Source of the DNA: an uncultured Pelagibacteraceae bacterium
GTDB lineage: Bacteria > Pseudomonadota > Alphaproteobacteria > Pelagibacterales > Pelagibacteraceae
DNA: 64,000 nucleotides
Assembly (NCBI GenBank): GCA_902580275.1
Contig: CACHJZ010000001.1
Location: 62,001 to 126,000 of the forward strand
Reading direction: 5' to 3'
Numbering within the stretch: position 1 is the first letter of the stretch; each line of letters starts with the position of its first letter. The translations under genes were made by a program, and so were the position numbers. The notes below the pieces were generated by a model. The model was not told where the DNA came from and ran no database searches. It worked only from the letters and a program-made list of their open reading frames with translations. Shown here one piece after another: positions 712-33,851 of the stretch.

Positions 712-1341
712 TTATTTTATCACTTCATATAACCCAAGCCAAGCATTCACATCTTTGCTTGCAATATAGTCAGATTTAAAAAATTCAATTTCTTTCCATT
801 TATTTTCATTGTTTAATTGTTCAATTTTTTTATCAAAGCCATACTCTTCGTGTATTCCTTCGTTTATTGTAAAACATATATGTCCTTTATTTTTAGTGAT
901 TCTTATAAATTCGTCTAAAGCAGGAGGTTTAACGTGTCCAAATGTAAAAGTCCCAACACACATTACGGCATCAAAAGTATCATTTTCTTCGTCGATAGGT
1001 TTATTTAAATCGACTTGATCAAGTTTTTTGTAAAGTTGGTCAGGTACCAAATCTAAGAGTTTTTTTGAAAGATCTGCACCATAAAAATTATGATACCCAA
1101 ATTTTTTTAATTCAACACCAACTAATCCTGTGCCACATCCAGCATCATAAATTTTAGCATCCTTGTTTTTTTGATATTTAATAAATGTTTCAGTAGTTTC
1201 TTTTGGACCAGTATAGTTCCAATCAAGCATGTCTTTATCATATTTATTTTCTTGTCCCCAATCGTCATAATACTTCATTACCTCATCGGTTTTTTTTAAT
1301 TTATAAATTGGTATTTTGTTTCCTACGTCTTTTTGTGCCAT
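712..1341 (-). CDS. class I SAM-dependent methyltransferase
   Basis: ORF; IYDAGCGTGLVGVELKKFGY SAM-binding motif I; operonic with neighbours. Confidence 0.8.
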   Translation of the reverse strand: MAQKDVGNKIPIYKLKKTDEVMKYYDDWGQENKYDKDMLDWNYTGPKETTETFIKYQKNKDAKIYDAGCGTGLVGVELKKFGYHNFYGADLSKKLLDLVPDQLYKKLDQVDLNKPIDEENDTFDAVMCVGTFTFGHVKPPALDEFIRITKNKGHICFTINEGIHEEYGFDKKIEQLNNENKWKEIEFFKSDYIASKDVNAWLGLYEVIK

Positions 1342-3746
1342 CAGCTTCTCATTTTTTGTCCTGTTGGATCATAAAGCGGTGATTTTATTACTGAAGAGTT
1401 AAACAAATCTCCATTTATTTCCACTTGAATTCCTTTTTCCGAATTTATTTCTCGGCTATCAAGATATGAAAACGCAACACTTTTATTTGTAAAATGTGCA
1501 AAACCTCCAGAAGTTACGTATCCAATAGCTTTTCCATTTTTGAGTACTGCTTCATTATTTGTTACGTCAATATCATTTGTCTCTACAATTAATGGTGTAA
1601 GTTTATTTTTACTTTCATCTTTTTTTGCAAAATTTTTTCCCACAAAATCTTTATCCCAATCAATGAATGTATCTAATCCTGTCTCTTTTGCAGTAAAGTC
1701 TGGTCTATAATCAAGCGTCCAAGCACCCCAATTTTTTTCAAGACGCATAGACATTAAAGCTCTTAAACCAAAGGGTTGAATGTTAAATTCTTTACCAGCT
1801 TCCATTAATTCTTCGTACAATTTAATTTGATAATGTGGCGCTGTATAAATTTCATATCCCAGCTCACCAGTAAAAGATAATCTATTTACAATTGCTGGTA
1901 CTCCACCAACAAACATTTTCCTAGAGTCTCTAAATTTTAAATTTTTATTTGATACATCTTCTCTTACAATTTTTTGAAAAACTTCTCTGGATTTAGGTCC
2001 CGATATTGCTAAACCATGAAAATCATCTGATCGATTTTTATAATTTACTTTAAATTTATTTAAATGACTTTCAAACCACCTTCTATGCATTTCTTGAGCT
2101 GCTCCAGATCCAAAAACCATAAATTTATTTTCATCAATACATGACACGGTAAGGTCGCCATAAAGTTTTCCTCTGTAAGTAAGCATTGGGGTAAGAGAAA
2201 TTCTTCCTGGTTTAGGAATTTTACCAGCCATAATATAGTTTAAAAAATTTCTAGCATCAGGTCCTTCAAATTCGTGTTTTGAAAAATTTGCAAGTTCCAT
2301 CACACCTACATTTTCTCTAACATTTATAACTTCTTTTGATACGTAATTATGAGATCTTGATCTTTTTATAGTTGGCTCTTCAAAGGCATCTTCTTTATTT
2401 TTTGCAAACCATAAAACGCTCTCTAAACCAAATCCATCACCCATAACTGCTCCTTGATTTACAAAACGATCGTATAACGCAGTTGTTTTTTGTTTTCTTC
2501 CCTTGGGTAAAGTTTCATTTGGAAATGTCATTATAAATCGTCTTTCATAATTTTCTGATGATTTAATAGTTCCATACTGTGGAGTGGCATATTCACCAAA
2601 CCTTGCTACATCCATTGCCCAAACATCAATGGACGGTTCTCCATCTATAATCCATTCAGCAATACATTTTCCAACACCGCCGCCCTGACAAAAACCAGCC
2701 ATAACACCAACTGCAACCCAATAATTTTTCATACCAGGAACTGGACCAATAAGTGGACTGCCATCAGGACCAAAAGTGAAAGGTCCATTAACAATGTTTT
2801 TTATTCCAGCTTTTTCTAATGCTGGCATTCTTTCAAATCCTATTGCTAACCTGTCTTGAATATTATCTAGCTTTGGTTCTAACAATTCATGTCCAAAATT
2901 CATTGGAGTTCCATTTATTTTCCATGGAGTTGACTTAGGTTCATAAGTACCAAGCAACATTCCTTTACCTTCTTGTCTAAAATAAATATTTCCCTCAAAG
3001 TCTGTACCAATTGGTAATCTTTGATCTCCCATCGCTTCAATTTCCGGAATACTTTCAGTTATTAAATAATGATGTTCCATTGGTTGAACTGGAAGATCTA
3101 CTCCAGAAAGATTTCCTACTTCTCTAGCCCATAGACCACCTGCATTGATAACAATTTCTGCATTGATATTTCCTTTGTCTGTAAATACATCCCAAGAACC
3201 ATCTGGTTTTTGTTTAGTATCTTTTACGACAGTGTGAGTATAATATTTTCCACCATGAACTTTAGCAGCTTTTGCAAATGCATATGTCACTCCTGAAGGG
3301 TCAACTTCACCATCAATAGGATCCCACAAAGCTAACAAATACCTTTTAGGATCAATTAAAGGATGTTTTTTCTTTACTTCATCAAGAGAAATAAATTCTT
3401 GGTCTAGACCCATATATCTTGCTTTTGATCTTTCCCTCTTTAAATATTCAGCCCAAACCTCATTGGATGCTAAATAAAAACCTCCACTTGGTTTAAAACC
3501 AACAGAATGACCAGACTCTTTTTCTATCTCTTTATAAAGACCAATTGTATAGGCCATCATTCTAGAAATATTTGGATCAGATGAAATTACGTGAACATTG
3601 CCAGCAGCATGCCAAGAAGAACCAGAAGTAAGTTCATTTCTCTCAAGTAAAATACAATCTTTTAAACCAAATTTAGATAAATGATAAAGAATTGAACAAC
3701 CTACTACACCACCACCGATAATGACTACTTTTGCATGATTTTCCAT
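1341..3746 (-). CDS. FAD-dependent dehydrogenase with C-terminal GcvT folate domain (dimethylglycine/sarcosine dehydrogenase family)
   Basis: 801 aa; N-terminal VVIIGGGVVGCSILYHL dinucleotide motif, DAO domain, C-terminal GcvT-like region (SFTGELGYEIYTAPHYQIKLYEELMEAGKEFNIQPFGLRALMSMRLEK). Confidence 0.85.
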   Translation of the reverse strand: MENHAKVVIIGGGVVGCSILYHLSKFGLKDCILLERNELTSGSSWHAAGNVHVISSDPNISRMMAYTIGLYKEIEKESGHSVGFKPSGGFYLASNEVWAEYLKRERSKARYMGLDQEFISLDEVKKKHPLIDPKRYLLALWDPIDGEVDPSGVTYAFAKAAKVHGGKYYTHTVVKDTKQKPDGSWDVFTDKGNINAEIVINAGGLWAREVGNLSGVDLPVQPMEHHYLITESIPEIEAMGDQRLPIGTDFEGNIYFRQEGKGMLLGTYEPKSTPWKINGTPMNFGHELLEPKLDNIQDRLAIGFERMPALEKAGIKNIVNGPFTFGPDGSPLIGPVPGMKNYWVAVGVMAGFCQGGGVGKCIAEWIIDGEPSIDVWAMDVARFGEYATPQYGTIKSSENYERRFIMTFPNETLPKGRKQKTTALYDRFVNQGAVMGDGFGLESVLWFAKNKEDAFEEPTIKRSRSHNYVSKEVINVRENVGVMELANFSKHEFEGPDARNFLNYIMAGKIPKPGRISLTPMLTYRGKLYGDLTVSCIDENKFMVFGSGAAQEMHRRWFESHLNKFKVNYKNRSDDFHGLAISGPKSREVFQKIVREDVSNKNLKFRDSRKMFVGGVPAIVNRLSFTGELGYEIYTAPHYQIKLYEELMEAGKEFNIQPFGLRALMSMRLEKNWGAWTLDYRPDFTAKETGLDTFIDWDKDFVGKNFAKKDESKNKLTPLIVETNDIDVTNNEAVLKNGKAIGYVTSGGFAHFTNKSVAFSYLDSREINSEKGIQVEINGDLFNSSVIKSPLYDPTGQKMRS

Positions 3747-3747
3747 T

Positions 3748-4788
3748 TTAATATTTTATTTCTTTGTTTACTTTCTTCAATGTCTTGTCTGTCCCATGGT
3801 GAAAATGCTTGCTCATATCTGGCATATACTTCATAGCAATCGGTTTTTTTCCAACTGCAACTGCCATCTCTCTAACATGATGAGCTTCTGCTCCACAACA
3901 TATACCAATTAAATTAATTTTTTTCTCAAGACATTCCTTGGCGAATTCTGCCATTTCAAATCTATTACAAAATAAATTATCTAAAGCTACGGGAAACGCA
4001 TTTCCTCCTGGGATACAATCACATCCGTGATCAGTTTGATTTAAAAATCCAGGCTCTTCTTCCGTTGTTCTATATGGAACAGGTAAACCTGCGACATGGC
4101 ATGAAACTTTTTTTCTAACTTCTTTTAAAAGTTTCATTGTCATTTTAGGACCTCTATAACAATTTAAACCAACAACATCTGCACCAAGATCTTCTATTAT
4201 TTTACATGCATCTTCAGCTGTGTAACCGTCTCTTGTTAAATCTCCTCTAGGTATCGCATAATTAGCTACAGCTATTAAACCTTCATCCTTAATTGCTTTT
4301 AATGCTATCTTCATTTCATCTACCCAATTGATAGTTTCCGCAACAATAAAATCAACACCTGCCTCTTTTGCCCAAAGCACTTGTTCCTCATACATCTTTT
4401 GACATTCTTTAAATGAGTTTTTATCCTTTGGATCAAAAATATTTGTATTTGCAACATCTCCACAAACCATCAAATCCAAATCTTTAAATTCATTTGCAGC
4501 ATCTTTTGCGATTTTAAGTGCGTTTTTTTGCATTTGTTCAAGCAGATGTTCTTTTCCAATAATTCTTAATTTTTCTCTATGTCCGTAATAAGTGAAAGCT
4601 TGAACAATATCAGAACCTGCTCTTATAAATTCTCTGTGTAACTGACTCACTACATCAGGATGCTCTAGCACTACTTCAGGTACAAATGGGCCGGCAGATA
4701 AATACCCTCTTCTTTCCATTGCAAATAAATACCCTTCTGCAAATATGACAGGACCTTCATCTAATCTTGATAATAAGTTTTTTTTCAT
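3748..4788 (-). CDS. bhmt: betaine-homocysteine S-methyltransferase (homocysteine S-methyltransferase family)
   Basis: 346 aa; VGLNCYRGP, LIGICCGAEAHHVREMA zinc-site cysteines typical of the family; operonic with the dehydrogenase. Confidence 0.8.
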   Translation of the reverse strand: MKKNLLSRLDEGPVIFAEGYLFAMERRGYLSAGPFVPEVVLEHPDVVSQLHREFIRAGSDIVQAFTYYGHREKLRIIGKEHLLEQMQKNALKIAKDAANEFKDLDLMVCGDVANTNIFDPKDKNSFKECQKMYEEQVLWAKEAGVDFIVAETINWVDEMKIALKAIKDEGLIAVANYAIPRGDLTRDGYTAEDACKIIEDLGADVVGLNCYRGPKMTMKLLKEVRKKVSCHVAGLPVPYRTTEEEPGFLNQTDHGCDCIPGGNAFPVALDNLFCNRFEMAEFAKECLEKKINLIGICCGAEAHHVREMAVAVGKKPIAMKYMPDMSKHFHHGTDKTLKKVNKEIKY

Positions 4789-5057
4789 TTTCTTCCTTTA
4801 AAAGTTAATTTTTTATTTGAGGAAAGTTTTTAATAACTGTCTCTTATAATTGATTGTTGAAAAACAGTTTTGCAATTTAAATTAAATTTAAAACCAAAAA
4901 TATTTTTGTATGAGACAAATTTCATAATTTTAAAAATATCAAAATACAAAATCTAAGTAAAAGCAATTTTTAATTACAACTCATAGTTGTTACTGGTTTG
5001 CTTTTTTTCTTATATATGTTCTAATTACTTTTTAAATTTAAAAAACGGAGATAATAA

Positions 5058-6068
5058 ATGAAAATAAAAAGAATAATTCTTTCTTTACTTGTTGCATTTG
5101 GCTTAACTTCTTTTAGTGGAATAGCTAACGCTGCATGTGGAAAGATTTCTATTGCTAATATGAACTGGGCATCAGCTAATTTTATGGCTGAAGTTGATAA
5201 GATTATATTAGAAGAAGGTTATGGTTGTACTGTGGAACTAGTTCCAGGAGCAACTATGCCAACGTTTACATCAATGCAAGAAAAAGGCGAGCCAGATGTT
5301 GCACCAGAGTTTTGGGCAAACGCTGCGATCATTGCTTTAAATAAAGCTGTTGATGAAGGAAAATTACACTCAATAAATAAAGCGCCTATTACAGGACTTG
5401 GTGAAGGTTGGTGGGTACTTCCACACACTTTGAAAAAACATCCAGAGTTAACAACTGCTGATGCTATTTTAAAAAGACCAGATCTTTTTCCACACCCAGA
5501 AGATCCATCAAAAGGTGGATTTCATATTTGTCCTCCAGGATGGAACTGTGAATTAAGTAACAGAAACCATTTTAGAGCATGGGAAATGGAGAAAAAAGGT
5601 TGGAAGATAGTTGAAACTGGTTCAGCTGCAGGATTAGATGGTTCAATTGCTAAAGCTGCAGAAAGAGGAGAAAACTGGTTTGGTTACTACTGGTCTCCAA
5701 CATCTTTAGTTGGAAAGTATGATCTTCAAGCTGTAGATATGGGTGAGTTTGCCGGTAAAGATAATTGGGATAATTGTCTAGCAAAACCTGAACAAGAATG
5801 TGCTAATCCTAAGAAATCTTCATGGGTAAAATCTGAAGTATTCACAGTCGTTACTGACAACTACAAAAAAACTGCTGGAAAAGATGGTATGAATTATCTT
5901 AAGAAAAGAGTTTATCCAGGTACAGCAATGAATGGTATGTTAGTATGGATGGCAGAAAACCAAGCAGAAGGTGCTGATGCTGCAATTGAATTCCTAAAAA
6001 CACAAGAAAGTGTTTGGACTAAGTGGGTTTCAAGCGGTGCTGCAAAAAAAATCAAAAAAGCACTTTAA
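5058..6068 (+). CDS. glycine betaine/proline-type ABC transporter substrate-binding protein (OpuAC family)
   Basis: 336 aa, signal peptide, OpuAC-type sequence with many Trp residues (NMNWASANFMAEVDKIILEEGYGCTVELVPGATMPTF). Confidence 0.85.
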   Translation: MKIKRIILSLLVAFGLTSFSGIANAACGKISIANMNWASANFMAEVDKIILEEGYGCTVELVPGATMPTFTSMQEKGEPDVAPEFWANAAIIALNKAVDEGKLHSINKAPITGLGEGWWVLPHTLKKHPELTTADAILKRPDLFPHPEDPSKGGFHICPPGWNCELSNRNHFRAWEMEKKGWKIVETGSAAGLDGSIAKAAERGENWFGYYWSPTSLVGKYDLQAVDMGEFAGKDNWDNCLAKPEQECANPKKSSWVKSEVFTVVTDNYKKTAGKDGMNYLKKRVYPGTAMNGMLVWMAENQAEGADAAIEFLKTQESVWTKWVSSGAAKKIKKAL

Positions 6069-6084
6069 TTAATAGTTAAAATTG

Positions 6085-6114
6085 TCTGAACCCGTTATAA
6101 TTAACGGGTTCAGA
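6085..6114 (+). terminator. intercistronic hairpin (attenuator/partial terminator) between binding protein and permease genes
   Basis: Perfect 12-bp stem TCTGAACCCGTT-ataatt-AACGGGTTCAGA 17 nt after the SBP stop; followed by A/T-rich tract. Confidence 0.65.
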
Positions 6115-6129
6115 AATAAAAAAATTTTT

Positions 6130-7014
6130 ATGGATTTCTTTAATAAAATTCCCGAAATGGATAGAGACGCTTTAAGAGAATTAAAGAAGGGAATTGATTT
6201 AAGTTTTAAAGAATTTTCAAGAGAGTATGGTGACTCTATAGAGGGTTTTTTCGATCCTCTTTTACATTTTTTAATATGGTTAGAAAAACTATTAGTAAGT
6301 AGTCCATGGCCATTAGTAATAGGAGTGTTTGGACTTTTAGCCTGGATAGGTTCAAGAAGTATTAAATTAGTAATTGGAACAATGGTTTGTTTCGTGATTA
6401 TTGGTTACTTTGGTATGTGGAAAAATTGTATGGCTACAGTTGCTATAATTTCTGTATCAACTCTAGTTTGTATTGTTGTTGGCATTCCTATAGGTGTTTT
6501 GATGTCAAAATCTAACAGGGCTGAAAAAGCAATTTTACCAGTTTTAGATATGATGCAAACAATTCCAAGCTTTGTTTATTTGATCCCTATTATAATGTTA
6601 CTGGGTATTGGAAAAGTACCTGGTTTATTGGCAGTTTGTATATATGCAATTCCTCCAATAGTAAGACTTACAAATTTAGGTATTCGTGAAGTTGACAAAG
6701 AAACACTTGAGGCCAGTGAAGCTTTTGGTGCTACACCATTCCAAAAACTAAGGTCAGTACAAATCCCATTATCTCTACCTACAATATTTGCAGGCATAAA
6801 CCAGACTATAATGATGGCATTAGCAATGGTTGTTATAGCTTCGATGATAGGTGTTAAAGGGCTAGGAATTCCAATTCTTCAATCAATTTCAAATCAATAT
6901 TTAGCCCTTGGAATGATGAATGGACTTGCAATTGTGGCCTTGGCCATAATTTTTGATAGAGTTACCCAGCAGTACGGTCAGAGGATCCAAAAGCATAGAG
7001 GTCAAAAAAAATAA
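6130..7014 (+). CDS. glycine betaine/proline-type ABC transporter permease (ProW/OpuAB family)
   Basis: ORF track starts at TTG 6082, but ATG 6130 avoids the hairpin. Transmembrane protein with binding-protein-dependent permease motif (EASEAFGATPFQKLRSVQIPLSLPTIFAGINQTIMMAL). Confidence 0.85.
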   Translation: MDFFNKIPEMDRDALRELKKGIDLSFKEFSREYGDSIEGFFDPLLHFLIWLEKLLVSSPWPLVIGVFGLLAWIGSRSIKLVIGTMVCFVIIGYFGMWKNCMATVAIISVSTLVCIVVGIPIGVLMSKSNRAEKAILPVLDMMQTIPSFVYLIPIIMLLGIGKVPGLLAVCIYAIPPIVRLTNLGIREVDKETLEASEAFGATPFQKLRSVQIPLSLPTIFAGINQTIMMALAMVVIASMIGVKGLGIPILQSISNQYLALGMMNGLAIVALAIIFDRVTQQYGQRIQKHRGQKK

Positions 7015-7078
7015 CCTGTTTCAATTTGATCTGAAATTTTTATAGACAGTTTTTCCAAAAATTAATAAATATCTTCTG

Positions 7079-7807
7079 ATGAACTTTTCTTTAGAAATTG
7101 GACCAAAAACAGACCTTTCCACTCTTCCTACCCTTAAGGATGTTTATATCACAATGCTTCCAGGAGGTGATTATAAAGAGACTGCGGAACAAGCTGTTAA
7201 ATTAGTTCAAAATGGTTTTAATCCAATTCCACATTTCCCGGCACGATCTATTGAAAGCGAAACACAACTAAAAGATTATATTTCTATATGTAAAGACGGG
7301 GGTGTGAAACAAGCTCTTATTATTGGAGGAAGCAGAGAACCTGTTGGTAAATTTGATAGCTCGATACAACTTTTGGAGACAGGTTATTTTGAACAAATGA
7401 AGATAGGAATTGCTGGACATCCAGAGGGGAGTCCTGATATATCGGATTCTAAATTGGAAAAAGCAATGGAAGATAAAAAGCCTTACGCTGATTATATAGT
7501 CACCCAATGGTTACTAGATCCTCAGCCTATAATTGACTTTATATCCAAGCAGTCAGTACCAGTTCATGTTGGAATTACTGGACCACTTAAAATCACTAGC
7601 TTAATTAAATTTGCTAATATTGTAGGTGCTAAAAATTCCATTAACTTTCTAAAATCTAATTTTAGTAAGGCATTAGATTTGATGAAACCTAAAGACCCTA
7701 ATGAATTAATTGGGAAATTAAAAATGCATACCGATTTTTTTCACATTTATACATTCGGCGGCTTGAAGGAAACTAACAAGTGGTTGAAGGAGAATGAATA
7801 TGTCTAA
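7079..7807 (+). CDS. methylenetetrahydrofolate reductase-like protein
   Basis: 242 aa; MetF-like pattern FSLEIGPKT, FNPIPHFPARSI, ALIIGGSREPVG, IGIAGHPEGSPD; shorter than canonical MetF. Confidence 0.75.
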   Translation: MNFSLEIGPKTDLSTLPTLKDVYITMLPGGDYKETAEQAVKLVQNGFNPIPHFPARSIESETQLKDYISICKDGGVKQALIIGGSREPVGKFDSSIQLLETGYFEQMKIGIAGHPEGSPDISDSKLEKAMEDKKPYADYIVTQWLLDPQPIIDFISKQSVPVHVGITGPLKITSLIKFANIVGAKNSINFLKSNFSKALDLMKPKDPNELIGKLKMHTDFFHIYTFGGLKETNKWLKENEYV

Positions 7808-9155
7808 AGAGTTTGATTATTCAAAAATGAAACATGTAACGTCTGTGAACCAAACAGACAGACATGTGCCTTATAATTTAAGGCAAAGTGGACCAACAAA
7901 AGTTGAATTGTTAATTTCAACAAGGGTAAGAAAATCACCTTATTGGCATTTATCAATGAGAGCAGGATGCTGGAGAGCAACTGTATACAATCGTATTTAC
8001 CATCCAAGAGGTTATGTTAAAGGCAAAAATGGTGCGATGGTTGAATATAAATCAATTAAAAATGATGTAACGATGTGGAATGTTGCAGTTGAAAGACAAA
8101 TTAGAGTTAAAGGCAAAGACGCTGAAAAATTTGTTAATTATGTAATTACTAGAGATGCAACAAAAATATCACCAATGAGAGCAAGATACGTTATTCTTTG
8201 TAACTATAAAGGTGGTGTTTTAAATGATCCAATATTATTAAGAGTAGCTAAAGATGAATTTTGGTTTAGTTTATCAGACAGTGATATTGGACTTTACTTG
8301 CAAGGGGTAAATGCAAATAAAAAATTTAAATGTGAAATTGATGAAATAGATGCGTGTCCTGTACAAATACAAGGTCCAAAATCTAAAGCACTAATGAAAG
8401 ATTTAATCGGTAAACAAGTTGATTTAGATAATATGCCTTACTATGGCTTAGCAAAAGCTAAGGTTGGTGGAAGAGATTGTGTTATTTCACAATCTGGTTT
8501 TTCAGGTGAGGCTGGATATGAAATTTATTTAAGGAATGCTACAAAATATGCAGATGATATGTGGAATGCAGTTTTGAAAGCAGGAAAAAAACATAAATTA
8601 AGAGTTATTGCTCCTGCTCACCACAGAAGAATACAGGCTGGGATTTTATCTTGGGGTCAAGACTTAGATCACGAACACAATCCGTTTCAATGTAATCTTG
8701 GTTACCAAGTATCATTATCAGGAAAAGGTGAATGGAAGAAAAAAGCTAATTATGTTGGTAAGGCTGCTTTGGAAAAAATGAAAAAACAATTAAAAGCAGG
8801 AAAAAAACCTTACAAACTTCAATTAGTTGGAATGGAAATGGGCGGAAAACCAATAACAGAATATGCTCCTGACTTTTGGTTAATTTCAAAACCAAGTGGC
8901 GGTAAACCTGTAGGATTTATTACTTCGCCTTGGTATCATCCAGAAAAGGGAATGAATATCGCAATGGGATATGTCCCATACGATGGTACAAAAAACCCGA
9001 ATGGTTTTCCAAAAGGTAAAGTTGGAACTAAATATAAAGTTCATTTACCAAGAAAATATTCCACAAAACCTGGTAAACCTGTTGATGCTGTAGTAGTTGA
9101 TATTCCATTTACTGAGTCATACCACGCAAATACAAGAGAAGTGGTAAAAGGTTAA
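7794..9155 (+). CDS. GcvT/DmdA-like tetrahydrofolate-dependent demethylase or aminomethyltransferase family protein
   Basis: 453 aa; folate-binding GcvT pattern (VWNVAVERQI-like N-term, QGPKSKALMKDL, SGFSGEAGYEIYLRNA); overlaps the MetF-like gene by 14 nt. Confidence 0.75.
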   Translation: MNMSKEFDYSKMKHVTSVNQTDRHVPYNLRQSGPTKVELLISTRVRKSPYWHLSMRAGCWRATVYNRIYHPRGYVKGKNGAMVEYKSIKNDVTMWNVAVERQIRVKGKDAEKFVNYVITRDATKISPMRARYVILCNYKGGVLNDPILLRVAKDEFWFSLSDSDIGLYLQGVNANKKFKCEIDEIDACPVQIQGPKSKALMKDLIGKQVDLDNMPYYGLAKAKVGGRDCVISQSGFSGEAGYEIYLRNATKYADDMWNAVLKAGKKHKLRVIAPAHHRRIQAGILSWGQDLDHEHNPFQCNLGYQVSLSGKGEWKKKANYVGKAALEKMKKQLKAGKKPYKLQLVGMEMGGKPITEYAPDFWLISKPSGGKPVGFITSPWYHPEKGMNIAMGYVPYDGTKNPNGFPKGKVGTKYKVHLPRKYSTKPGKPVDAVVVDIPFTESYHANTREVVKG

Positions 9156-9198: not shown

Positions 9199-9744
9199 AT
9201 GTTTGCTGTATTTTTAGATATTGTTTTTAAATCACTGAAGTTAGATAGATCTCTTTATTCAGATAATAAATATTTTGGGGAAGCTGCTATATACTTTGCT
9301 GGCCTTATAATGATCCTAGAGGGAGTTGCTGGAGCAATTGCTGCCAACAGTATTATTAAAACATCAATAGGATTATCGGGGTTAACTGCAATTTTGACAT
9401 GGTTTATATGGTCAATATTAATTTTTGTAATTGGAGTTAAACTATTTCCAGATAAAAATAGTAAAATACCATTTAAAAAAGTTTTAATTGGTGTTGGTTA
9501 TGCACATGCACCCGGGTTAATTAGATTTTTTGCAGTAACACCAGATTTAGTTCTACCTGTGATATTTTTAACGCAATTTTGGATTTTTGCGTCTCTCATC
9601 ATATCAACGAAACATGTTTTGGGCCTAAAGTCCAATCTTAAATCTTTTGGTATAATTTTTTTAGCTTTCTTGCTAATTGCATTTTTATCAGTATCTTTTG
9701 TGATTAGTAGAATGAATGCATTGCCAATAAGTACAATTAGCTAA
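9199..9744 (+). CDS. Yip1-like multi-pass membrane protein
   Basis: 181 aa with several hydrophobic helices; general Yip1-family appearance. Confidence 0.5.
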   Translation: MFAVFLDIVFKSLKLDRSLYSDNKYFGEAAIYFAGLIMILEGVAGAIAANSIIKTSIGLSGLTAILTWFIWSILIFVIGVKLFPDKNSKIPFKKVLIGVGYAHAPGLIRFFAVTPDLVLPVIFLTQFWIFASLIISTKHVLGLKSNLKSFGIIFLAFLLIAFLSVSFVISRMNALPISTIS

Positions 9745-16225: not shown

Positions 16226-16810
16226 TTAAATTGCTTTATAACCAAATTCAAGCGAAGCGTCTGTAATTGAATGATATAAAGACTCTCCAAAACTTCTAAG
16301 GCACATAACTCTTATTTTATCAGGTTTATCATTAATAAAATCTAATGTGATAGCAATTCCATTAAAAATAGAATTTATTGATTCATTTTTATTTATGTCG
16401 TTAAAATTAATTGGGCAACCTTTTTTTAAAACCTCTCTTACACTTTTTCCTGACAGTTCAATTATTGCTTTTGAATGGGACAAATCAGTTATCGCAAACT
16501 CAACGTTAGAAAGATTTTTAGATATTTCTTGAAACAAATTACTTGAGTTTGATATTATGAGCCAATTATTTGGGCCCATCCATAATATTCTTGCATCCTT
16601 ATTTTCAGATACTTTTAGCTTATCAGGAAAATCTAAACCAGATAATTTATAATCATTAATATTTTTCTTATTTTTTTTAAACTTTACGATCTGGAAAATT
16701 TTAAAGTTTTTCAATTCTTTTATATTTATAATTTCATCTGGATTTTTATTTTTGAAATTACCATGATCTCCAACTAAATGAACGTTATTTAATGGTGATA
16801 TGCTTGTCAT
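16226..16810 (-). CDS. soxG: heterotetrameric sarcosine oxidase gamma subunit-like
   Basis: 194 aa; position after soxA, folate-binding YgfZ/SoxG-like features (GPNNWLIIS, ITDLSHSKAIIELSGKSVREVLKKGCPIN). Confidence 0.8.
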   Translation of the reverse strand: MTSISPLNNVHLVGDHGNFKNKNPDEIINIKELKNFKIFQIVKFKKNKKNINDYKLSGLDFPDKLKVSENKDARILWMGPNNWLIISNSSNLFQEISKNLSNVEFAITDLSHSKAIIELSGKSVREVLKKGCPINFNDINKNESINSIFNGIAITLDFINDKPDKIRVMCLRSFGESLYHSITDASLEFGYKAI

Positions 16811-19803
16811 GATCGTACTCTCTCTCCTTTTGGATCTACATAGTGCGACGATACAATTTCAACTGCTATAGTTTTATTTTTTAGTGGAGACATAGCATAT
16901 AGTTTTGAACCAATCATATTTTTTCCATCTTTTAAAATAGCTAGAGAAAATGGATTGTTATGTTCAACACTCCAACAAGAAGCTGATATATGTCCTAGTT
17001 TTGGATTAGGTAACTTTCCTTTAGGATCTTTTACAAGATGTGATCCTTCTGGAATACTTGTCTTTTTATCTAACGGAACTACCCCTACTAATCTTTGTCT
17101 ATCCTTTTCATTATAGGCTTTTTTCAGTAAAGATCTTTTACCTATAAAGTCTTTTTTCTTACTTACTAAACCATCTAAACCTGTATCATAAGGTATAGTT
17201 CTTCCATCTAATTCTGATCCAGCAACGTGGCCCATTTCTATTCTAAGAGTTGATAAAGCTTCAGTTCCATATGGTTGCAAATCAAAATCTTTACCAATTT
17301 CTATAATTTTTTCCCACATAAAGTTTCCATTATCTGACTCAACATTTACTTCGTAAGCAAGCTCACCAGAAAATGAAATTCTGAATATTCTTGCGTTAAC
17401 ACCAAATAAATTTGCCTCTACAAATCCCATAAATGGCAATCCTTCATTAGAAACATCTGTATCTGGAAAAAGTTTTTGCAATAAATCTCTAGACTTTGGT
17501 CCTGCAATAGCAGCGCCAGCCCACTGTTCGGTTGTTGATACAACATTAACATCAAGCTCAGGCCAAACTAGTTGTAAATAGTATTCTAAATGAGACAATA
17601 CATTAGCTGCTTGAGCAGTAGTAGTTGTCATATGGTAATGGTTCTCAGAAATCCTTGTAGTTGTTCCGTCATCCATTACGATACCATCTTCTCTAAGCAT
17701 TACACCATATCTTGCTTTCCCAACTGGTAGTTTAAGCCATGCATTTGTGTAAACTCTATTTAAAAATTCAGCTGCATCGGGACCTTTAATATCTATTTTT
17801 CCAAGGGTTGTTACATCACAAACGCCAACATTCTTTCGAACGTTTTCTGCTTCTCTTTTAGAGGCTTCAAACAATCCCTCATTTCCTCTTTTGTAGTATC
17901 TTGGTCGTAACCAAACACCAGCATCAACAAAAACTGCATTGTTTTTTTCATGCCAATTATGCATTGGAGATTTTCTTGTTGGTTTAGAGTGTTTTCCAAT
18001 TTCTCTTCCTACAATAGCTCCAATAGAAATTGGTGTATAAGGTGGTCTGAATGTTGTGTGTCCTACTGCTGGAACAACTTTATTTTCTATATTTGATACT
18101 AATTGTAATCCATTAAGATTACTTGTTTTACCTTGATCGGTAGCCATACCTAAAGTTGTATAACGTTTTACATGCTCAATAGATCTATAACCCTCTCTAA
18201 TTGCAAGTTCTATATCTGATACAGCAACATCATTTTGAAAATCTAAAAATCTTTTATATTTTTTCCCTTTTGGTAACGGAACACACCAAAACTTATCATG
18301 TTTAGAGTGTTTTTTTTCTGAAACTTTAGGTATTTGCTGGCTATTGTTATTATTAGTAATTTCTTTAGATAATTCAAAACCTTTGTCAAAAGAAGTTTTC
18401 AATGTTTCTTCTAAAGTAAATACTCCATTTGCAGAACCCAAGGTTACTTCTTTTTGTTTCGACTTATCTGGCACAAAAGCATCAATTTCCTCTTTAAACT
18501 TTGTCTTACCTCCTGATTGAGACGCAAGATGAATAGTTGGGGTCCAAAAACCTGAGACACAAATACAATCACATTCAATATTTTTAATTTGATTTAAGTT
18601 TTGTTTATCTTCAGATATTTCTGCAATATCACAAGATTTTACTTTCTTATAACCTTTGGCTGCAACTACAACATGAGAAAATTTAATATCTATACCAAGA
18701 GACTTTGCCTCTTTAATTATTTCTGAGTTACTGTCTTGTCTACTGTCTAATACAATTGGATTAATATTATTTTTTTTAAATTCGATAGCAGTTTCATAAG
18801 CGCTATCATTGTTAGTAAATACAATAGGTTTTTTTCCAACTAAAACTCCATAAACTTTCATGTATTCCTTAGCTGCGGATGCTAAGACTACTCCAGGTGT
18901 ATCATTGTTTCCAAAAACAATTGGTCTTTCTATTGATCCTGAAGAAATTACAACTTGTTTTGCTCTTATATACCAAAGTCTTTGTTTGGGAGTGAATTGT
19001 TCTGATTTTGGTAAATGGTCTGTCACTCTTTCAGACATTACTAGCATATTGTGATCATAGTAACCGAAAATTTGAGCTCTATTTTTAACAGTTACATTTG
19101 TCATTCCTTTAAGTTCTGTAATAATATTATCAGCCCATTCTTTTCCACTTTGATTATTAATACTCACATCTGATGTTAATAAACTTCCACCAAATCGAGG
19201 CTTATCTTCAGCAAGAATAACTCTTGCACCATTTTTTGCTGCAGCATAAGCACTTGCCAATCCAGAGGGTCCAGATCCAGCAATTAATAGATCACAATAC
19301 TCATATTTATGTTCATATCTTTCCTTGTCATGTTCTTTTGATGCAACGCCAAAACCTGCTGCTTTTCTGATAAATGGTTCGTATATTCTGTACCAAAAGC
19401 TTCTCGGCCACATAAATGTTTTGTAATAAAAACCTGCTGGTAAAAATATATTCAAAAAATTATTTATTGCACCAATATCAAAATTAACACTTGGCCAACA
19501 ATTCACACTCTTCGCTTCTAAACCCTCAAATAATTCCTGTTCTGTAGCTCTTACGTTTGGTTCTGTTTCACCATTTCTATATAATTGAACAATTGCATAC
19601 GGCTCGTCGACACCTGCACCAAAAAAACCTCTAGGTCTATGATATTTGAAACTTCTTCCTACTAAATGAACACCATTAGCAATTAAAGCAGATGCCAATG
19701 TATCCCCCTCATACCCAAAATATTTTTTTCCATTAAATTTAAATGAAAGTTTTTTTTCTCTATTTACTAATCCGATTTTATCTAATCTATAATTTTGTCT
19801 CAT
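16807..19803 (-). CDS. soxA: heterotetrameric sarcosine oxidase (or N-methylglutamate dehydrogenase) alpha subunit
   Basis: 998 aa; N-terminal 2Fe-2S-like region (GVHLVGRSFKYHRPRGFFGAG), FAD/NAD domain, C-terminal GcvT domain (SFSGELAYEVNVESDNG). Confidence 0.9.
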   Translation of the reverse strand: MRQNYRLDKIGLVNREKKLSFKFNGKKYFGYEGDTLASALIANGVHLVGRSFKYHRPRGFFGAGVDEPYAIVQLYRNGETEPNVRATEQELFEGLEAKSVNCWPSVNFDIGAINNFLNIFLPAGFYYKTFMWPRSFWYRIYEPFIRKAAGFGVASKEHDKERYEHKYEYCDLLIAGSGPSGLASAYAAAKNGARVILAEDKPRFGGSLLTSDVSINNQSGKEWADNIITELKGMTNVTVKNRAQIFGYYDHNMLVMSERVTDHLPKSEQFTPKQRLWYIRAKQVVISSGSIERPIVFGNNDTPGVVLASAAKEYMKVYGVLVGKKPIVFTNNDSAYETAIEFKKNNINPIVLDSRQDSNSEIIKEAKSLGIDIKFSHVVVAAKGYKKVKSCDIAEISEDKQNLNQIKNIECDCICVSGFWTPTIHLASQSGGKTKFKEEIDAFVPDKSKQKEVTLGSANGVFTLEETLKTSFDKGFELSKEITNNNNSQQIPKVSEKKHSKHDKFWCVPLPKGKKYKRFLDFQNDVAVSDIELAIREGYRSIEHVKRYTTLGMATDQGKTSNLNGLQLVSNIENKVVPAVGHTTFRPPYTPISIGAIVGREIGKHSKPTRKSPMHNWHEKNNAVFVDAGVWLRPRYYKRGNEGLFEASKREAENVRKNVGVCDVTTLGKIDIKGPDAAEFLNRVYTNAWLKLPVGKARYGVMLREDGIVMDDGTTTRISENHYHMTTTTAQAANVLSHLEYYLQLVWPELDVNVVSTTEQWAGAAIAGPKSRDLLQKLFPDTDVSNEGLPFMGFVEANLFGVNARIFRISFSGELAYEVNVESDNGNFMWEKIIEIGKDFDLQPYGTEALSTLRIEMGHVAGSELDGRTIPYDTGLDGLVSKKKDFIGKRSLLKKAYNEKDRQRLVGVVPLDKKTSIPEGSHLVKDPKGKLPNPKLGHISASCWSVEHNNPFSLAILKDGKNMIGSKLYAMSPLKNKTIAVEIVSSHYVDPKGERVRS

Positions 19804-20072
19804 TATCCAACTTTTTCTTCTGATTTATAAGTATTAAATATTTCATGTGTTGAGGTATCTCTTAGAACTTTTATCCATTGTCTACATCCAGATACATGAT
19901 GCCAAAGTTCTAAATGTTTTCCTCTTGGGCTTTTTCTTAGATATACAAACTCATCCCACTCTTGATCTGAAATTTCTTTGTTAAGTTCTGGTCTTTTTAC
20001 AGAAGCATCTCCACCATAAGCAAATTCATTTTGAGATCGTAATCCACAATGTGGGCACTTGATGTAAAGCAT
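19803..20072 (-). CDS. soxD: heterotetrameric sarcosine oxidase delta subunit
   Basis: 89 aa; CPHCG...EFAYGGDA, LWHHVSGCRQW typical of SoxD. Confidence 0.95.
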   Translation of the reverse strand: MLYIKCPHCGLRSQNEFAYGGDASVKRPELNKEISDQEWDEFVYLRKSPRGKHLELWHHVSGCRQWIKVLRDTSTHEIFNTYKSEEKVG

Positions 20073-21329
20073 TTAAGAAATCCAAGTTTTTGTTCCAAGA
20101 CCTTTTTCATCTATGAGATGACCAGTACTAAATCTATCTAATCTAAAACCAGCGTTTAATTCGTGAACTCTATCTTGAGCTATTGTGTGTGCAAAAGTAA
20201 AACCTGATGCTGGTGTTGCTTTAAATCCACCATAACACCATCCACAATTTAAATATAATCCTGCAATATGAGTTTTGTCAATTATTGGTGATCCATCCAT
20301 TGACATATCCATTATACCACCCCAGGTTCTTAACATATTTAATTTACTTAAAAATGGGAACATCGCAATTCCTTCTGTCAATACATGTTGAAGTGTTGGT
20401 AAATTTCCTCTTTGCGCATAACTATTATATCCATCCAAATCTCCACCCATTACCATTTCACCTTTGTCAGATTGACTACAATAAAAATGTCCGGCACCAA
20501 AAGTTACTACATGATCAAGAATTGGCTTGATTGGTTCAGAAACGCAAGCTTGCAATAAATGGGTTTCAATTGGCAATGTCATATTTAACATTTCTGCTAG
20601 AATTGAAGTACTACCAGCAACACATAAGCCAACTTTTTTAGTTTTAATATCTCCTCTTGAGGTTTTAATTCCTTGAATTTTTCCATTACTAACATCAAAC
20701 CCAGTAACTTCGCAATGCTGAATAATATCTACTCCCATAGAGTCAGCTTGTCTTGCGTAACCCCAAGCAACTGCATCGTGTCTAGCAGTTCCTGCACTGG
20801 GCTGCATCAGTGCACCGAATATTGGGAATCTTACATTGTCAGAAAAATCTAAAACTGGAACTTTCTTTTTTACTTCTTCTCTATCGAGCAATACTGCATC
20901 AATACCATTTAATCTCATAGAGTTTCCTCTTCTTGCGTATGCGTTCATTTGTGCATCAGAATGCGCAAGATTAATAATTCCTCTTGGGGAGAACATTATA
21001 TTGAAGTTTAAATCTTGAGACATGCTTCTCCACAAGTCCATCCCTTTCTCATAAAAAAGACCGTTTTCATCGTGCATGTAATTTGATCTGATAATAGTTG
21101 TATTCCTCCCAACGTTTCCACCACCAATCCATCCTTTTTCTATAACGGCAATATTTGTAATTTTGTGCTCTTTAGCTAAATAATATGCTGTGGCTAAGCC
21201 ATGACCTCCACCCCCAATTATGACTACGTCATATTCTTTTTTTGGTGTTGGATCTTTCCAGGCAACTTCCCAACCTTTGTGACCTGAGAATGCATTTTTT
21301 ATTAAGCTTAAAAATGAATATTTTTGCAT
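20073..21329 (-). CDS. soxB: heterotetrameric sarcosine oxidase beta subunit
   Basis: 418 aa; YDVVIIGGGGHGLATAYYLAKEH, GWIGGGNVGRNTTIIRSNY, WGGIMDMSMDGSPIID. Confidence 0.92.
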   Translation of the reverse strand: MQKYSFLSLIKNAFSGHKGWEVAWKDPTPKKEYDVVIIGGGGHGLATAYYLAKEHKITNIAVIEKGWIGGGNVGRNTTIIRSNYMHDENGLFYEKGMDLWRSMSQDLNFNIMFSPRGIINLAHSDAQMNAYARRGNSMRLNGIDAVLLDREEVKKKVPVLDFSDNVRFPIFGALMQPSAGTARHDAVAWGYARQADSMGVDIIQHCEVTGFDVSNGKIQGIKTSRGDIKTKKVGLCVAGSTSILAEMLNMTLPIETHLLQACVSEPIKPILDHVVTFGAGHFYCSQSDKGEMVMGGDLDGYNSYAQRGNLPTLQHVLTEGIAMFPFLSKLNMLRTWGGIMDMSMDGSPIIDKTHIAGLYLNCGWCYGGFKATPASGFTFAHTIAQDRVHELNAGFRLDRFSTGHLIDEKGLGTKTWIS

Positions 21330-21423
21330 AAATTATTATAACTAATTTTAATTTATTTCTTTAAAAATTATATAATAAAGTATAGAAATCTGTTCCATAA
21401 TATAAAGCTTAAAGAAAGCATAT

Positions 21424-23112
21424 ATGGGCGCAGTCAAATCAGACATCGAAATAGCAAGAGCCGCAAAAATGAAGCCTATTAAGGATATTTTAGGCAAGAT
21501 CAAAGTTCCAGATAATAATAGCAGCTTTAGTCCTATGGGTAGGCATATTGCTAAAATAAACCTTGAATACTTGAATAAATTAAAAAATAAAAAAGATGGA
21601 CATCTAATTTTAGTAACCGCTATTACACCTACTCCTGCGGGAGAGGGAAAAACAACTACCTCTGTTGGGTTACATGATGGGCTTAACAAAATTGGTAAAA
21701 AATCAATAGTATGTTTAAGAGAGCCTAGTCTCGGACCATCGTTTGGTATGAAGGGAGGTGCTGCTGGAGGTGGTTATGCTCAAGTAGTACCTATGGAACA
21801 AATTAATTTACATTTTACTGGAGACTTTCATGCCATTACATCAGCTCATAATTTGCTATCTGCTTTAATTGATAATCACATCTATTGGGGTAACAAACTT
21901 AAAATTGATGATAAGAGAGTTGTTTGGAAAAGAGTTATGGATATGAATGACAGAGCTTTAAGGTTCATAAATATTAATACTAAAGGTGTTGCAAAAGAAT
22001 TTCCAAGAGAAGATGGCTTTGATATCACAGTTGCATCAGAGGTTATGGCAATTTTTTGCTTATCAAATGATCTAAAAGATTTGGAAAAGAGAATCGGAAA
22101 TATAACAATCGCATATAATACTGATGGCAAACCTATTTATGCAAAAGATCTAAATGCCCAAGGACCAATGACTGTTCTTTTAAAAGATGCAATAAGACCG
22201 AACGTAACCCAAACTTTAGAAAATAATCCTGCATTAATCCATGGAGGACCTTTTGCTAATATTGCGCATGGATGTAATTCGGTAATTGCAACAAAGTCTG
22301 CTTTAAAACTTGCTGACTATGTTGTTACAGAGGCTGGGTTTGGTGCAGATCTAGGTGCTGAAAAATTTTTAGATATTAAATGTAGAAAATCAAACTTAAA
22401 ACCAAGTTGTGTGGTTATTGTTGCAACAATAAGAGCCTTAAAAATGCATGGAGGTGTTGAAAAAGAAAATTTAAAAATCGAAAATGTTGAGGCACTAAAA
22501 AAAGGATTGGTAAATTTGGAAAGACACATAAATAATATAAAAAAATTTGGATTAACACCAATTGTAGCTGTTAATAGTTTCATTTTAGATACAAAAAAAG
22601 AAATATCCGCTGTAAAGGATTTTTGTAAAAGTCAAAAGGTTGAAGTCAGCGAATCTACACATTGGGCAGATGGTGGAAAAGGTGCAAAAGATTTAGCTAA
22701 AAAAGTTGTTAAAATATGCAAAGTTTCAAAAAAGAAAAATTTTAAGTTTTTATATGAGGATAATCAATCATTGTGGAGCAAAGTGGAAACTATTGCAAAA
22801 GAGATATACAAAGCAAGTTCAATTACTTCAGATGAAAATGTAAAAAAACAGTTAAAAATATTTGAGGATAATGGATATGGAAAATTACCTGTCTGTATAG
22901 CTAAAACTCAGTACAGTTTTTCAGTTGATCCTAAATTAAAAGGGGCTCCTACAGGTCATGAAATTTCTATAAGAGAGGTAAGATTATCATCTGGTGCTGA
23001 GTTTATTGTTGTAGTTTGTGGATCAATTATGACAATGCCTGGTTTACCAAGAGTTCCTGCCGCTGATAAAATAAAACTAAATAAAAAAGGTGATATAGAG
23101 GGATTATTTTAA
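21424..23112 (+). CDS. fhs: formate-tetrahydrofolate ligase
   Basis: 562 aa; [39 protein letters not shown]. Confidence 0.97.
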
Positions 23113-29660: not shown

Positions 29661-31784
29661 CTAATCCTGCCCTAACAATTTCTTTTGTTTTTCAGCCCAA
29701 GTACGTATTAAATTATCAACTGCAAGTCCAATAAATGCTACACATAATCCCAACATCAAACCATTGCCGGTTCCTTGTCTGTCAGATAATGCTTTAAGTA
29801 TATATTGTCCAAGATCGGTTGTCCCAATCATTGCTCCAATAATTACCATAAACAATGCAAATACGACTGTTTGATTTATTCCAAGCATCATGTGTGGAAA
29901 GGCTAAGGGTAGTTCTATTCTCATCCATCTTTGAAGTCTATTAACTCCTGACATTGAGCCTGCATCATGTAATGCTGATGGAACACTTCTTAATCCTTCT
30001 ATTGTGTATCTTGTTGCAGGTATTGTTGCATAAATTACAACTGCAATTAAAACAGAAGTGTCTGTTACTCCAAATAACATAATTACAGGTATTAGGTAAA
30101 TAAAAGATGGAAATGTTTGAAGTGTGTCACACACCGCTAATGTAATTTTAGTGCTTGTTTTGCTTTGTGCACTTAAAGTTCCAATTATTATACCTAAAAT
30201 ACCTGAAACAATTACACCGAATGTTGCCATATACATGGTTATTAACGCTCTATCCCACCACTCAGTTAGAGCTATAAATAATGTAAAGCTTCCAACAACA
30301 ATTGCAGATCTTATTCCTCCAATAATATAACCAGCACCCATAAAAAGTACAAAAGTAGCTACAGCTGGCATTCTTAAGAAGGCATTTTTCATAGGAATTA
30401 AAACTTGTGTAATTAACCAAGTATTAAAAACTTTTAGTGGATCAAAAAAGTTATCAAGTATCCAATCTACACCAGAATTCCAAAATGCTTCTGTAGATAT
30501 TCCTTTATTGTGTGGAACAATAAACAGATAATTAAATCCTTCTTTGAAATAGAATGTTCCAATATATGATAAAATGTATCCAGCTATGACCACTCCGACA
30601 AAAATCATAAAATATTTATTTCTTTGAAAGAAAGTTGGATTTTCAAAATAATTTATTTGTTTGTTTGCCCAAGCCAATGACATTTTATCTAATAAAACAG
30701 CGATTAGTGTTATACATATTCCTGCTTCTAAAGCTAAACCTATTCGTAATTGGTTCAAAGCTAATAATAAATTCCAGCCTAGTCCTTTTGCTCCAATAAA
30801 AGATGCAATAACAGCCATTGCTAAACACTGCATGATAACTTGGTTAACACCAATTAAAATATCTCTACGAGCCGTTGGTATTAGTACTTTAAATAAGAGT
30901 TGGAAATTACTACATCCGCTCATCTTTCCAGCCTCTATAACTTCTGGTGAAACTTTTCTGAGTCCTAGCAAAGTCAATCTGACCATAGGAGGTGTAGCAA
31001 AAATAATAGTTGCTATTGCTCCAGCATGGTCACCAATACCAAATAAAACCATTATTGGAACTAAATAGGAATAGTGTGGCATGGTTTGTGCAACGTTAAG
31101 AAGTGGGTTTAAAATATTTTCAACTCTTTTACTTCTGTATGCCCATATTCCAAATCCTAATCCTAATAAGAAAGATATTGGCGCTGCAACCATTACAAAT
31201 GATAAAGTTTGCATTGAAGGTTTCCATTGACCAAATGCTGAAATATAAATCATGGTTAATCCAGCAAAGATAGCAAGATTCCTGCCATTTAATTTATAAC
31301 CTAAAACTACAGCTGCACCAGCAACAATAGTCCAAGGAAGGCCCGGTAATTCTGCCCAAGGATTTTTATCTAACCAATCCCAGCTAGTAAATGCTACAAC
31401 AGTTTCAACACCTCCAATTAAAATTTCTCTTATGAACTCAATCATGAAAAGCATTGATCTAGAAATAATTCTTGTAATATGAAGAACAACTGGACGAGAT
31501 TTTGTCTCCTGAATATCGCTATCAAAATATTCTATAGGTGCCCATTCATTTAATAGAAAAAAAACTGAGTCATTTATCCATCCAGGCATCCATGCTATAA
31601 AAGCAGGTAATCTCCAAAACACACTGTATTTTGTTTGATCTAATTTATCTTTATCAATAAATTCAGTTCCAGCTTTCGCAAATTCATATCCATCAGGAAC
31701 CTCTATTGCAAAACATAATCCAAAGAACACTAATAACAAAAATGACCATTGGACAGCTTTAGGATATTTTTGAAGAAAAGCCAT
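29661..31784 (-). CDS. tmoW: double-domain ABC transporter permease for quaternary amine/TMAO-type substrate (TmoW-like)
   Basis: 707 aa with two permease domains (SGCSNFQLLFKVLIPTARRDILIGVNQVIMQ and SGVNRLQRWMRIELPLAFPHMMLGINQTVVFALF); adjacent to ProV-like ATPase and Tdm-like gene. TMAO specificity is inferred from context. Confidence 0.7.
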   Translation of the reverse strand: MAFLQKYPKAVQWSFLLLVFFGLCFAIEVPDGYEFAKAGTEFIDKDKLDQTKYSVFWRLPAFIAWMPGWINDSVFFLLNEWAPIEYFDSDIQETKSRPVVLHITRIISRSMLFMIEFIREILIGGVETVVAFTSWDWLDKNPWAELPGLPWTIVAGAAVVLGYKLNGRNLAIFAGLTMIYISAFGQWKPSMQTLSFVMVAAPISFLLGLGFGIWAYRSKRVENILNPLLNVAQTMPHYSYLVPIMVLFGIGDHAGAIATIIFATPPMVRLTLLGLRKVSPEVIEAGKMSGCSNFQLLFKVLIPTARRDILIGVNQVIMQCLAMAVIASFIGAKGLGWNLLLALNQLRIGLALEAGICITLIAVLLDKMSLAWANKQINYFENPTFFQRNKYFMIFVGVVIAGYILSYIGTFYFKEGFNYLFIVPHNKGISTEAFWNSGVDWILDNFFDPLKVFNTWLITQVLIPMKNAFLRMPAVATFVLFMGAGYIIGGIRSAIVVGSFTLFIALTEWWDRALITMYMATFGVIVSGILGIIIGTLSAQSKTSTKITLAVCDTLQTFPSFIYLIPVIMLFGVTDTSVLIAVVIYATIPATRYTIEGLRSVPSALHDAGSMSGVNRLQRWMRIELPLAFPHMMLGINQTVVFALFMVIIGAMIGTTDLGQYILKALSDRQGTGNGLMLGLCVAFIGLAVDNLIRTWAEKQKKLLGQD

Positions 31785-31790
31785 AATACT

Positions 31791-32828: not shown

Positions 32829-32868
32829 ATTTAAATAATTATACTATTATTATTGGTGTATTCTCCAT

Positions 32869-33393
32869 CTAAAAATTTTTAATAAAATAAACCCTAGTAT
32901 CTATACTTGTTCTTAAAAATCCAAGTGCCTCACCCTCAACTGTTACTGAGTCTGAAGTTCCTTCTAAAGGTTTTACCGTAAATTTTGCAAAACATTTATT
33001 TTTACTATCGTTCCAATTAACTGCATATTTTCCGGTAGTGCCCCCATTTGCTGTATATAGATTAAATGCTTTAGCATCTGTAATGTTCGCACCCATAATT
33101 GCTCTTTGTGTAATAATCTTAGTATTATTGCATACGATTTTATATTCTTCTGCTGAAAGCTTTCTTCCTTTATCACTTTCATAAAACGTTAGTACTCCTC
33201 TTGGTAAACTCTCAATAAATTCATTTGCTTGTTCTTGAATTTTTTTTTCTTCAGCAATTTTTTTTTCAGCATTTGGATCTGGTCCAAAAAAAATGTTAAG
33301 TACAAAAAATGTAAAGAAAATTACAATTGTTAAACTAACTAAACCTATTGAATTTTTATAATTTTCAGACAATCTATAGATGTTACTTAACAT
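32869..33393 (-). CDS. single-TM membrane-anchored protein of unknown function
   Basis: 174 aa; N-terminal TM segment, then charged linker and a beta-rich domain; overlaps the MORN gene by 11 nt. Confidence 0.65.
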   Translation of the reverse strand: MLSNIYRLSENYKNSIGLVSLTIVIFFTFFVLNIFFGPDPNAEKKIAEEKKIQEQANEFIESLPRGVLTFYESDKGRKLSAEEYKIVCNNTKIITQRAIMGANITDAKAFNLYTANGGTTGKYAVNWNDSKNKCFAKFTVKPLEGTSDSVTVEGEALGFLRTSIDTRVYFIKNF

Positions 33394-33760: not shown

Positions 33761-33792
33761 TGCTTTTATAAACTACACTAAAATAAAAAAAA

Positions 33793-33822
33793 AATCTCCC
33801 CTAGTAAAACTAGGGAAGATTT
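33793..33822 (-). terminator. Rho-independent terminator/attenuator after the TMAO-type binding protein gene
   Basis: Minus strand: AAATCTTCCCTAGTtttACTAGGGGAGATTTTTTTTT; strong stem followed by a T run. Confidence 0.8.
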
Positions 33823-33851
33823 TAATTTGATTTTAAGTTGAAATAAAGTGA

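Follow-up and report, generated by a model that had tools for sequence, protein, structure and literature searches.

Which methylated compound is demethylated by the enzyme encoded beside metF in SAR11, and is it supplied by the transporter genes that lie upstream? The question is raised by four co-directional genes at positions 5058-9155 of a 64,000-nucleotide stretch (the window) from a 1.18 Mb Pelagibacterales (SAR11) genome. On the forward strand they encode an OpuAC/DmpX-type substrate-binding protein (SBP; 5058-6068, 336 aa; OpuAC, 2e-45), a ProW/ChoW/DmpW-type importer permease (6082-7014, 310 aa with a TTG start as called; BPD_transp_1, 2.1e-26), a short MetF resembling methylenetetrahydrofolate reductase (MTHFR; 7079-7807, 242 aa) and a predicted tetrahydrofolate (THF)-dependent methyltransferase of the GcvT/DmdA fold, here called AMT (7794-9155, 453 aa; GCV_T, 1.2e-40). 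A first-pass annotation, made from the letters of the stretch, had described these genes as a self-contained module for the import of a methylated osmolyte, its demethylation and the oxidation of the resulting methyl-THF. The four open reading frames (ORFs) were recovered with the families it expected, and metF and AMT overlap by exactly the 14 nt it reported, with gaps of 13 and 64 nt between SBP, permease and metF. The genes are, however, two units, metF-AMT (7079-9155) and the SBP with its permease, and gene context leads us to favour, with moderate confidence, a THF-dependent glycine betaine demethylase and its MetF as the function of the first unit.

AMT and its partner MetF

AMT is a member of the GcvT-fold folate-binding superfamily, as indicated by its GCV_T domain (accompanied in the Pfam scan by a borderline GCV_T_C match), its folate-site residues and its fold. 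The closest PDB match was DmdA (3tfh; 5.6e-44), with 28% identity between AMT and DmdA. All NCBIfam scores fell below the respective cut-offs: 233 bits for DmdA (cut-off 410), 155 for GcvT (300), 42.3 for DesA (800) and 29.5 for LigM (580), and an aromatic demethylase of the LigM/DesA type was rejected on these scores. In the phylogenetic tree, from which two wrong-frame ORFs (L145, L156) were excluded, 23 AMTs formed one clade (100/99) and nine DmdA-type sequences another (100/99). The two joined each other at 100/97 and excluded the domains of Tdm, GcvT, SoxA and DMGDH. The exact sister relation of AMT and DmdA is less sure than the two clades because long branches meet at the join. DmdA was rejected as the identity of AMT on its score against the equivalog model, its placement outside the DmdA clade and the replacement of W197, and GcvT on its subfamily score, its placement outside GcvT and the presence of a separate gcvT in the genome. 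A further GcvT-family protein of the same genome (L190:3366-4592, 408 aa) sits on a long branch outside both DmdA and AMT, and a DmdA-like gene (L190:8505-9701) is found approximately 4 kb away from it.

Four residues are invariant in the AMT family (D145, E243, Y245 and R279). D145 was aligned with D96 of the GcvT from T. maritima, and E243 and Y245 correspond to E204 and Y206 of DmdA. W197 of DmdA has been reported to be a key residue for dimethylsulfoniopropionate (DMSP) (PMC7487153); at this position 20 of 21 aligned AMTs have Phe (Phe236 in the AMT of the window), the exception being the most distant one (L153). AMT does differ from canonical DmdA, as the first-pass annotation had stated, but the segment MRAGCWRATVYNRIYHPRGYVKGK, which it took for an extra N-terminal region, aligns with the DmdA N-terminus (approximately residues 22-45). 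The parts that AMT has in addition to DmdA are residues 1-40, carrying the family motif VDQSDRxVPxNLRQSG, a short insertion and an extended C-terminal part. Structure prediction with AF2 gave a weak model of AMT (pLDDT 63, pTM 0.59), which was therefore used for the fold only and not for modelling the pocket; its best match was again 3tfh. AMT thus has in common with DmdA the fold, the folate-site residues and probably a direct methyl transfer to THF, and differs in its clade, in Phe for W197 and in residues 1-40. We regard it as very probably a THF-dependent demethylase of some kind.

MetF matched the Pfam MTHFR family at 2e-4 and 21.4 bits, below the gathering score of 24 bits. Despite this sub-threshold score it is an MTHFR, by its match to the solved enzyme of Sphingobium SYK-6 (7xg9; 6.2e-33) and by its AF2 model (pLDDT 83), for which the Foldseek top hit was 7xlf, the CH3-THF complex of the 7xg9 enzyme, and the top hits were all MTHFR. 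Residue E6, which we take to be the equivalent of the catalytic Glu28 of E. coli MetF, was invariant among ten homologs. The SYK-6 MetF is the partner of LigM/DesA demethylation. The proposed role of the MetF in the window is the same, oxidation of demethylase-derived 5-methyl-THF, although it is approximately 45 residues shorter and its partner is not LigM/DesA.

Conservation of the metF-AMT pair extends across SAR11 families, and the pair is found again in other orders and among gammaproteobacteria. Among 197 Pelagibacterales genomes, 176 matched AMT at E<=1e-40 (a minority of these through paralogs only), and identity to AMT across most Pelagibacterales was 81-87% over its length. In strain HTCC1062 (G011, taken as HTCC1062) AMT and MetF are 86% and 83% identical to the proteins of the window and, from the position beside metF, are therefore the orthologs SAR11_1265 and SAR11_1264, respectively. 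The same two genes stand there in the same order, without an adjacent importer, and are predicted to encode a THF methyltransferase and methyl-THF oxidation; Sun et al. (2011) described SAR11_1265 as a core aminomethyltransferase adjoining metF, left its substrate unassigned and guessed at a second DMSP demethylation (PMC3160333). During stationary phase in HTCC1062 the metF and AMT mRNAs drop together 5- to 10-fold with little change in the proteins (PMC5069961). The conserved pair, together with a GcvT-fold methyltransferase that is not DmdA and an adjoining MTHFR, supports the earlier proposal that a methyl group would pass to THF and then be oxidised by MetF.

Gene context and the candidate substrate

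The first-pass annotation had named a methylated osmolyte of unknown identity as the substrate; gene context now points to glycine betaine. The most telling context was found in three gammaproteobacterial genomes of one genus, in which AMT, metF and fhs lie beside genes for GbdR, L-serine ammonia-lyase (SdaA) and a DMGDH-family protein. Both glycine betaine and dimethylglycine are signals to which GbdR responds. Family scans at one of these loci (L198) gave 500.8 bits for GbdR (equivalog cut-off 480) and 682 bits for L-serine ammonia-lyase.

We surveyed 385 sampled alphaproteobacteria for AMT (E<=1e-90) and for FAO_M, the domain of the dimethylglycine/sarcosine-dehydrogenase family. AMT was present in 19 genomes, 16 of them outside SAR11, and FAO_M in 139. 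Outside SAR11, FAO_M was encoded in all 16 genomes with AMT compared to 120 of 364 without it (Fisher p 4e-8), and in 9 of the 16 the two lay within 10 kb of each other compared to an expected 0.31. A protein of this family was encoded in each of the 33 AMT-carrying genomes tested, and within the SAR11 order FAO_M was found in 17 of 17. In family f1, 14 of 16 AMT-lacking genomes of genera g2-g5 were also without FAO_M; in the genus to which the window belongs, four genomes without AMT do have FAO_M. At individual loci the linkage took the form of an operon soxDAG-DMGDH-metF-AMT (L140 and L141, one genus), of soxBDA divergent from AMT-metF-fhs-DMGDH (L151) and, in family f142, of AMT followed by DMGDH and, as judged by eye, EtfB, EtfA and ETF-QO genes.

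The neighbourhood in the window extends in the opposite direction as well, with three divergent minus-strand genes at 712-4788. These encode a BHMT-like homocysteine S-methyltransferase (3748-4788; PF02574, 1.1e-41), a DMGDH-family flavoprotein with a C-terminal GcvT domain (1341-3746; DAO, FAO_M, GCV_T and GCV_T_C) and, at the end of the group, an S-adenosylmethionine-dependent methyltransferase-like protein (712-1341; Methyltransf_11, 1.8e-10). The BHMT-like and DMGDH-family genes fit glycine betaine catabolism. A sarcosine-oxidase-type cluster lies approximately 7-14 kb from AMT (16226-23112), with SoxA (16807-19803) and a SoxB-like gene (20073-21329) on the minus strand and an fhs-like gene (21424-23112) divergent from them.

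Other routes for the first demethylation of glycine betaine were rare in genomes carrying AMT. MTTB was encoded in 3 of the 33 tested and in none of the three gammaproteobacteria with GbdR, whose genus has no GbcA above the cut-off either, and no GbcA over the cut-off was found in the 27 examined. DmdA was not found in six AMT-carrying genomes (G271, G441, G480, G505 (79% complete), G557 and G559), which argues against an obligate DMSP role, and DmdA was rejected as an obligatory partner of AMT. The Phe in place of W197 also counts in favour of glycine betaine, and HTCC1062 oxidises 14C-methyl glycine betaine to CO2 (PMC3160333).

On this reading, AMT would bind THF within the GcvT/DmdA fold and demethylate a quaternary (onium) osmolyte once; this osmolyte is most probably glycine betaine, which would yield dimethylglycine and 5-methyl-THF. 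The co-translated MetF would convert 5-methyl-THF to 5,10-methylene-THF, which FolD, Fhs and formate dehydrogenase would take to CO2, and DMGDH-family and sarcosine-oxidase (SoxBDAG) enzymes would convert dimethylglycine to glycine. We infer the catalysis, its product, the direction of MetF and the substrate alike. The route would resemble that of Ruegeria, in which MtgBCD likewise passes the glycine betaine methyl to THF for oxidation by a dedicated MetF2 (PMC12478193), except that the Ruegeria route needs a cobalamin protein and the MTTB-family MtgB and AMT would be a single cobalamin-free GcvT-fold enzyme.

Several observations weigh against glycine betaine as the substrate. In SAR11 the first step of its breakdown is already available through BHMT; at two loci (L069 and L191) metF-AMT has a DmdA-like and an acyl-CoA ligase gene as neighbours, along with fhs and a DMGDH-family gene; one AMT-carrying genome (G494) encodes three MTTB proteins as well as a near-GbcA protein; and in family f142 no metF adjoins AMT. 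The co-occurrence and linkage numbers overstate independence because the nine genomes showing linkage represent five families. Several N-methyl amines fall within the range of the DMGDH family, and glycine betaine is thus not the only amine that would fit. To our knowledge, demethylation of a quaternary ammonium has been demonstrated for no GcvT-fold enzyme, and a search of the available papers for a GcvT-type glycine betaine demethylase found none.

Another quaternary amine, such as choline, carnitine, proline betaine, homarine or trigonelline, could also deliver its product to DMGDH-family enzymes and would share the context evidence; several such amines were on the candidate list of the first-pass annotation, and the Rieske oxygenase encoded beside metF in HTCC1062 (L119:6050-7243), which scored below the GbcA cut-off, is nearest in the PDB to carnitine monooxygenase CntA. 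We nevertheless consider this unlikely, since the recurring DMGDH family, SoxBDAG, SdaA and GbdR constitute a glycine betaine breakdown set and the window has a BHMT gene as divergent neighbour. A stronger doubt attaches to the guess of Sun et al. (2011) that AMT is a second demethylase of the DMSP route, converting methylmercaptopropionate (MMPA) to mercaptopropionate with transfer of the methyl group to THF. It was put forward for SAR11_1265 (PMC3160333), and it would agree with the placement of AMT as sister to DmdA, with the DmpX-like SBP next to the pair and with the DmdA-like and acyl-CoA ligase genes of L069 and L191. The six genomes with AMT and without DmdA speak against it, and it is a misfit with the DMGDH and sarcosine-oxidase neighbours and with the gammaproteobacterial GbdR. 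MMPA is, moreover, a thioether, and thioethers are much poorer methyl donors than sulfoniums. Finally, YgfZ and Iba57 belong to the same fold family, and AMT could in principle be a folate-binding protein of their kind that has no demethylase activity. This is highly improbable given the invariant folate-site residues, the long-range pairing of AMT with metF and fhs and a fold that is far closer to DmdA than to YgfZ.

The substrate-binding protein and permease

The relation of the importer genes to metF-AMT was assessed at SAR11 loci with at least 2.9 kb present upstream of AMT, at 24 of which AMT is immediately preceded by metF. The SBP and permease genes come before metF at 12 of these loci (11 of them also with BHMT) and are absent from the other 12, so that metF accompanies AMT regularly across related genomes and the importer does not. 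The permease (ProW-like, 268 bits) was paired with the SBP at every locus where both occur. HTCC1062 and HTCC9565 carry metF-AMT with a Rieske oxygenase gene upstream and no importer; in G020, methyltransferase, DMGDH, BHMT and Rieske genes are divergent from SBP-permease-metF-AMT. In the single-cell genome AG-404-B06 (L040:1-6373), a very close relative, the best-matching part of AMT shows 100% identity to the AMT of the window and metF only 86%, and the genes upstream of metF are replaced by what appears by eye to be a DNA methyltransferase/restriction module. The identity break and the replaced genes therefore point to a recombination junction in or near metF.

The four genes include no ATPase gene, as had been noted earlier. 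Matching SBP and permease types occur together with an ATPase in eight other genomes, in the order SBP-permease-ATPase in seven (L177, L179, L181, L183, L184, L188, L192) and with the ATPase before the SBP in L182, and in every case this ATPase most resembles the ProV of the window's genome at G000:C1:33277-34215. The latter, approximately 33 kb upstream, is the likely ATPase of the importer. In G013 a gene for a 313-aa protein is followed by SBP, permease, a GDPD-like gene, a GBBH-like dioxygenase gene on the opposite strand and ProV; the corresponding locus in the window's genome has the 313-aa protein, GDPD-like, dioxygenase and ProV genes and is missing the SBP and permease. The same locus was seen with and without SBP-permease in L185:7046-13030 and L189:1331-5228, beside the GBBH-like dioxygenase and ProV ATPase genes. 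Gene order is most simply read as a relocation of SBP and permease to the site beside metF, with the ATPase staying at the former locus; the SBP and permease would form a DmpX/W-type osmolyte importer still using that ATPase.

Region 29661-37234 of the window also holds a TMAO-type (trimethylamine N-oxide) importer on the minus strand, comprising an SBP (33852-34790), an ATPase (31791-32828) and a fused 707-aa permease (29661-31784), with a Tdm-like TMAO demethylase gene (34889-37234) divergent from it. Its ProV-type ATPase, one of two others that scored above the family cut-off, was rejected as the partner of the SBP and permease beside metF, as it has its own SBP and fused permease and adjoins the Tdm-like gene; a third ProV (C1:45279-46211) likewise has its own fused permease and SBP.

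The only PDB match of the SBP was the DMSP-binding RnDmpX (7yle; 3.5e-62). Seven of the eight published DMSP residues of DmpX are identical in the SBP pocket, with Asn in place of Ala153; 13 relatives retain these seven residues, with variation at the A153 position. In family f32, DmdA is encoded a few kb away from SBP homologs, and in G002 BHMT-DMGDH and the SBP-permease-ATPase triple are convergent. Plausible ligands are DMSP and glycine betaine. DMSP binding has been measured for the DmpX of strain HTCC7211, a result that we do not extend to this SBP. The pocket residues and the permease type are in common with the DmpXWV importer of DMSP (PMC10030565), but the cluster in the window has no ATPase gene and its ligand is predicted from sequence.

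It is accordingly doubtful that the four genes form one functional module whose importer supplies the specific substrate of AMT. Their common direction, short gaps and overlap, and the same order at half of the scorable loci, would suit such a module. The importer is, however, missing from the other half, including HTCC1062 and L040, its likely ATPase is at a distant site, and SBP-permease-ATPase triples stand elsewhere in genomes that also carry AMT. The gene pair recognised by the first-pass annotation is real; its grouping with a movable importer is not supported.

Flanking features and significance for SAR11

A gene for a 181-aa membrane-type protein (9199-9744, forward strand) follows AMT, as it usually does in the SAR11 loci seen. 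Pfam and NCBIfam scans of this protein returned no match, and it may belong to the metF-AMT unit. An Rfam scan of the window gave no riboswitch at the gathering threshold and a single weak chance match (4796-4847); a riboswitch between the BHMT and SBP genes was rejected, as that threshold was never reached in the window.

Glycine betaine is a very common marine osmolyte, and SAR11, among the most abundant bacteria of the ocean, oxidises its methyl groups to CO2. AMT is a core SAR11 enzyme that has been without an assigned substrate since 2011. We tentatively suggest that it may be a widespread THF-dependent demethylase of glycine betaine, made up of a single polypeptide and free of cobalamin, and a main entry of glycine betaine methyl groups to one-carbon oxidation in SAR11 and several other alpha- and gammaproteobacterial lineages. 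If so, AMT would be a GcvT-fold enzyme that directly demethylates a quaternary ammonium, on a route free of the cobalamin of MtgBCD, the homocysteine of BHMT and the oxygenase of GbcAB. Its presence in gammaproteobacteria, which are possibly easier to handle, makes this testable. AMT would then serve as a new metagenomic marker of glycine betaine turnover, and it would be a competitor of BHMT for this osmolyte and decouple energy use from methionine synthesis.

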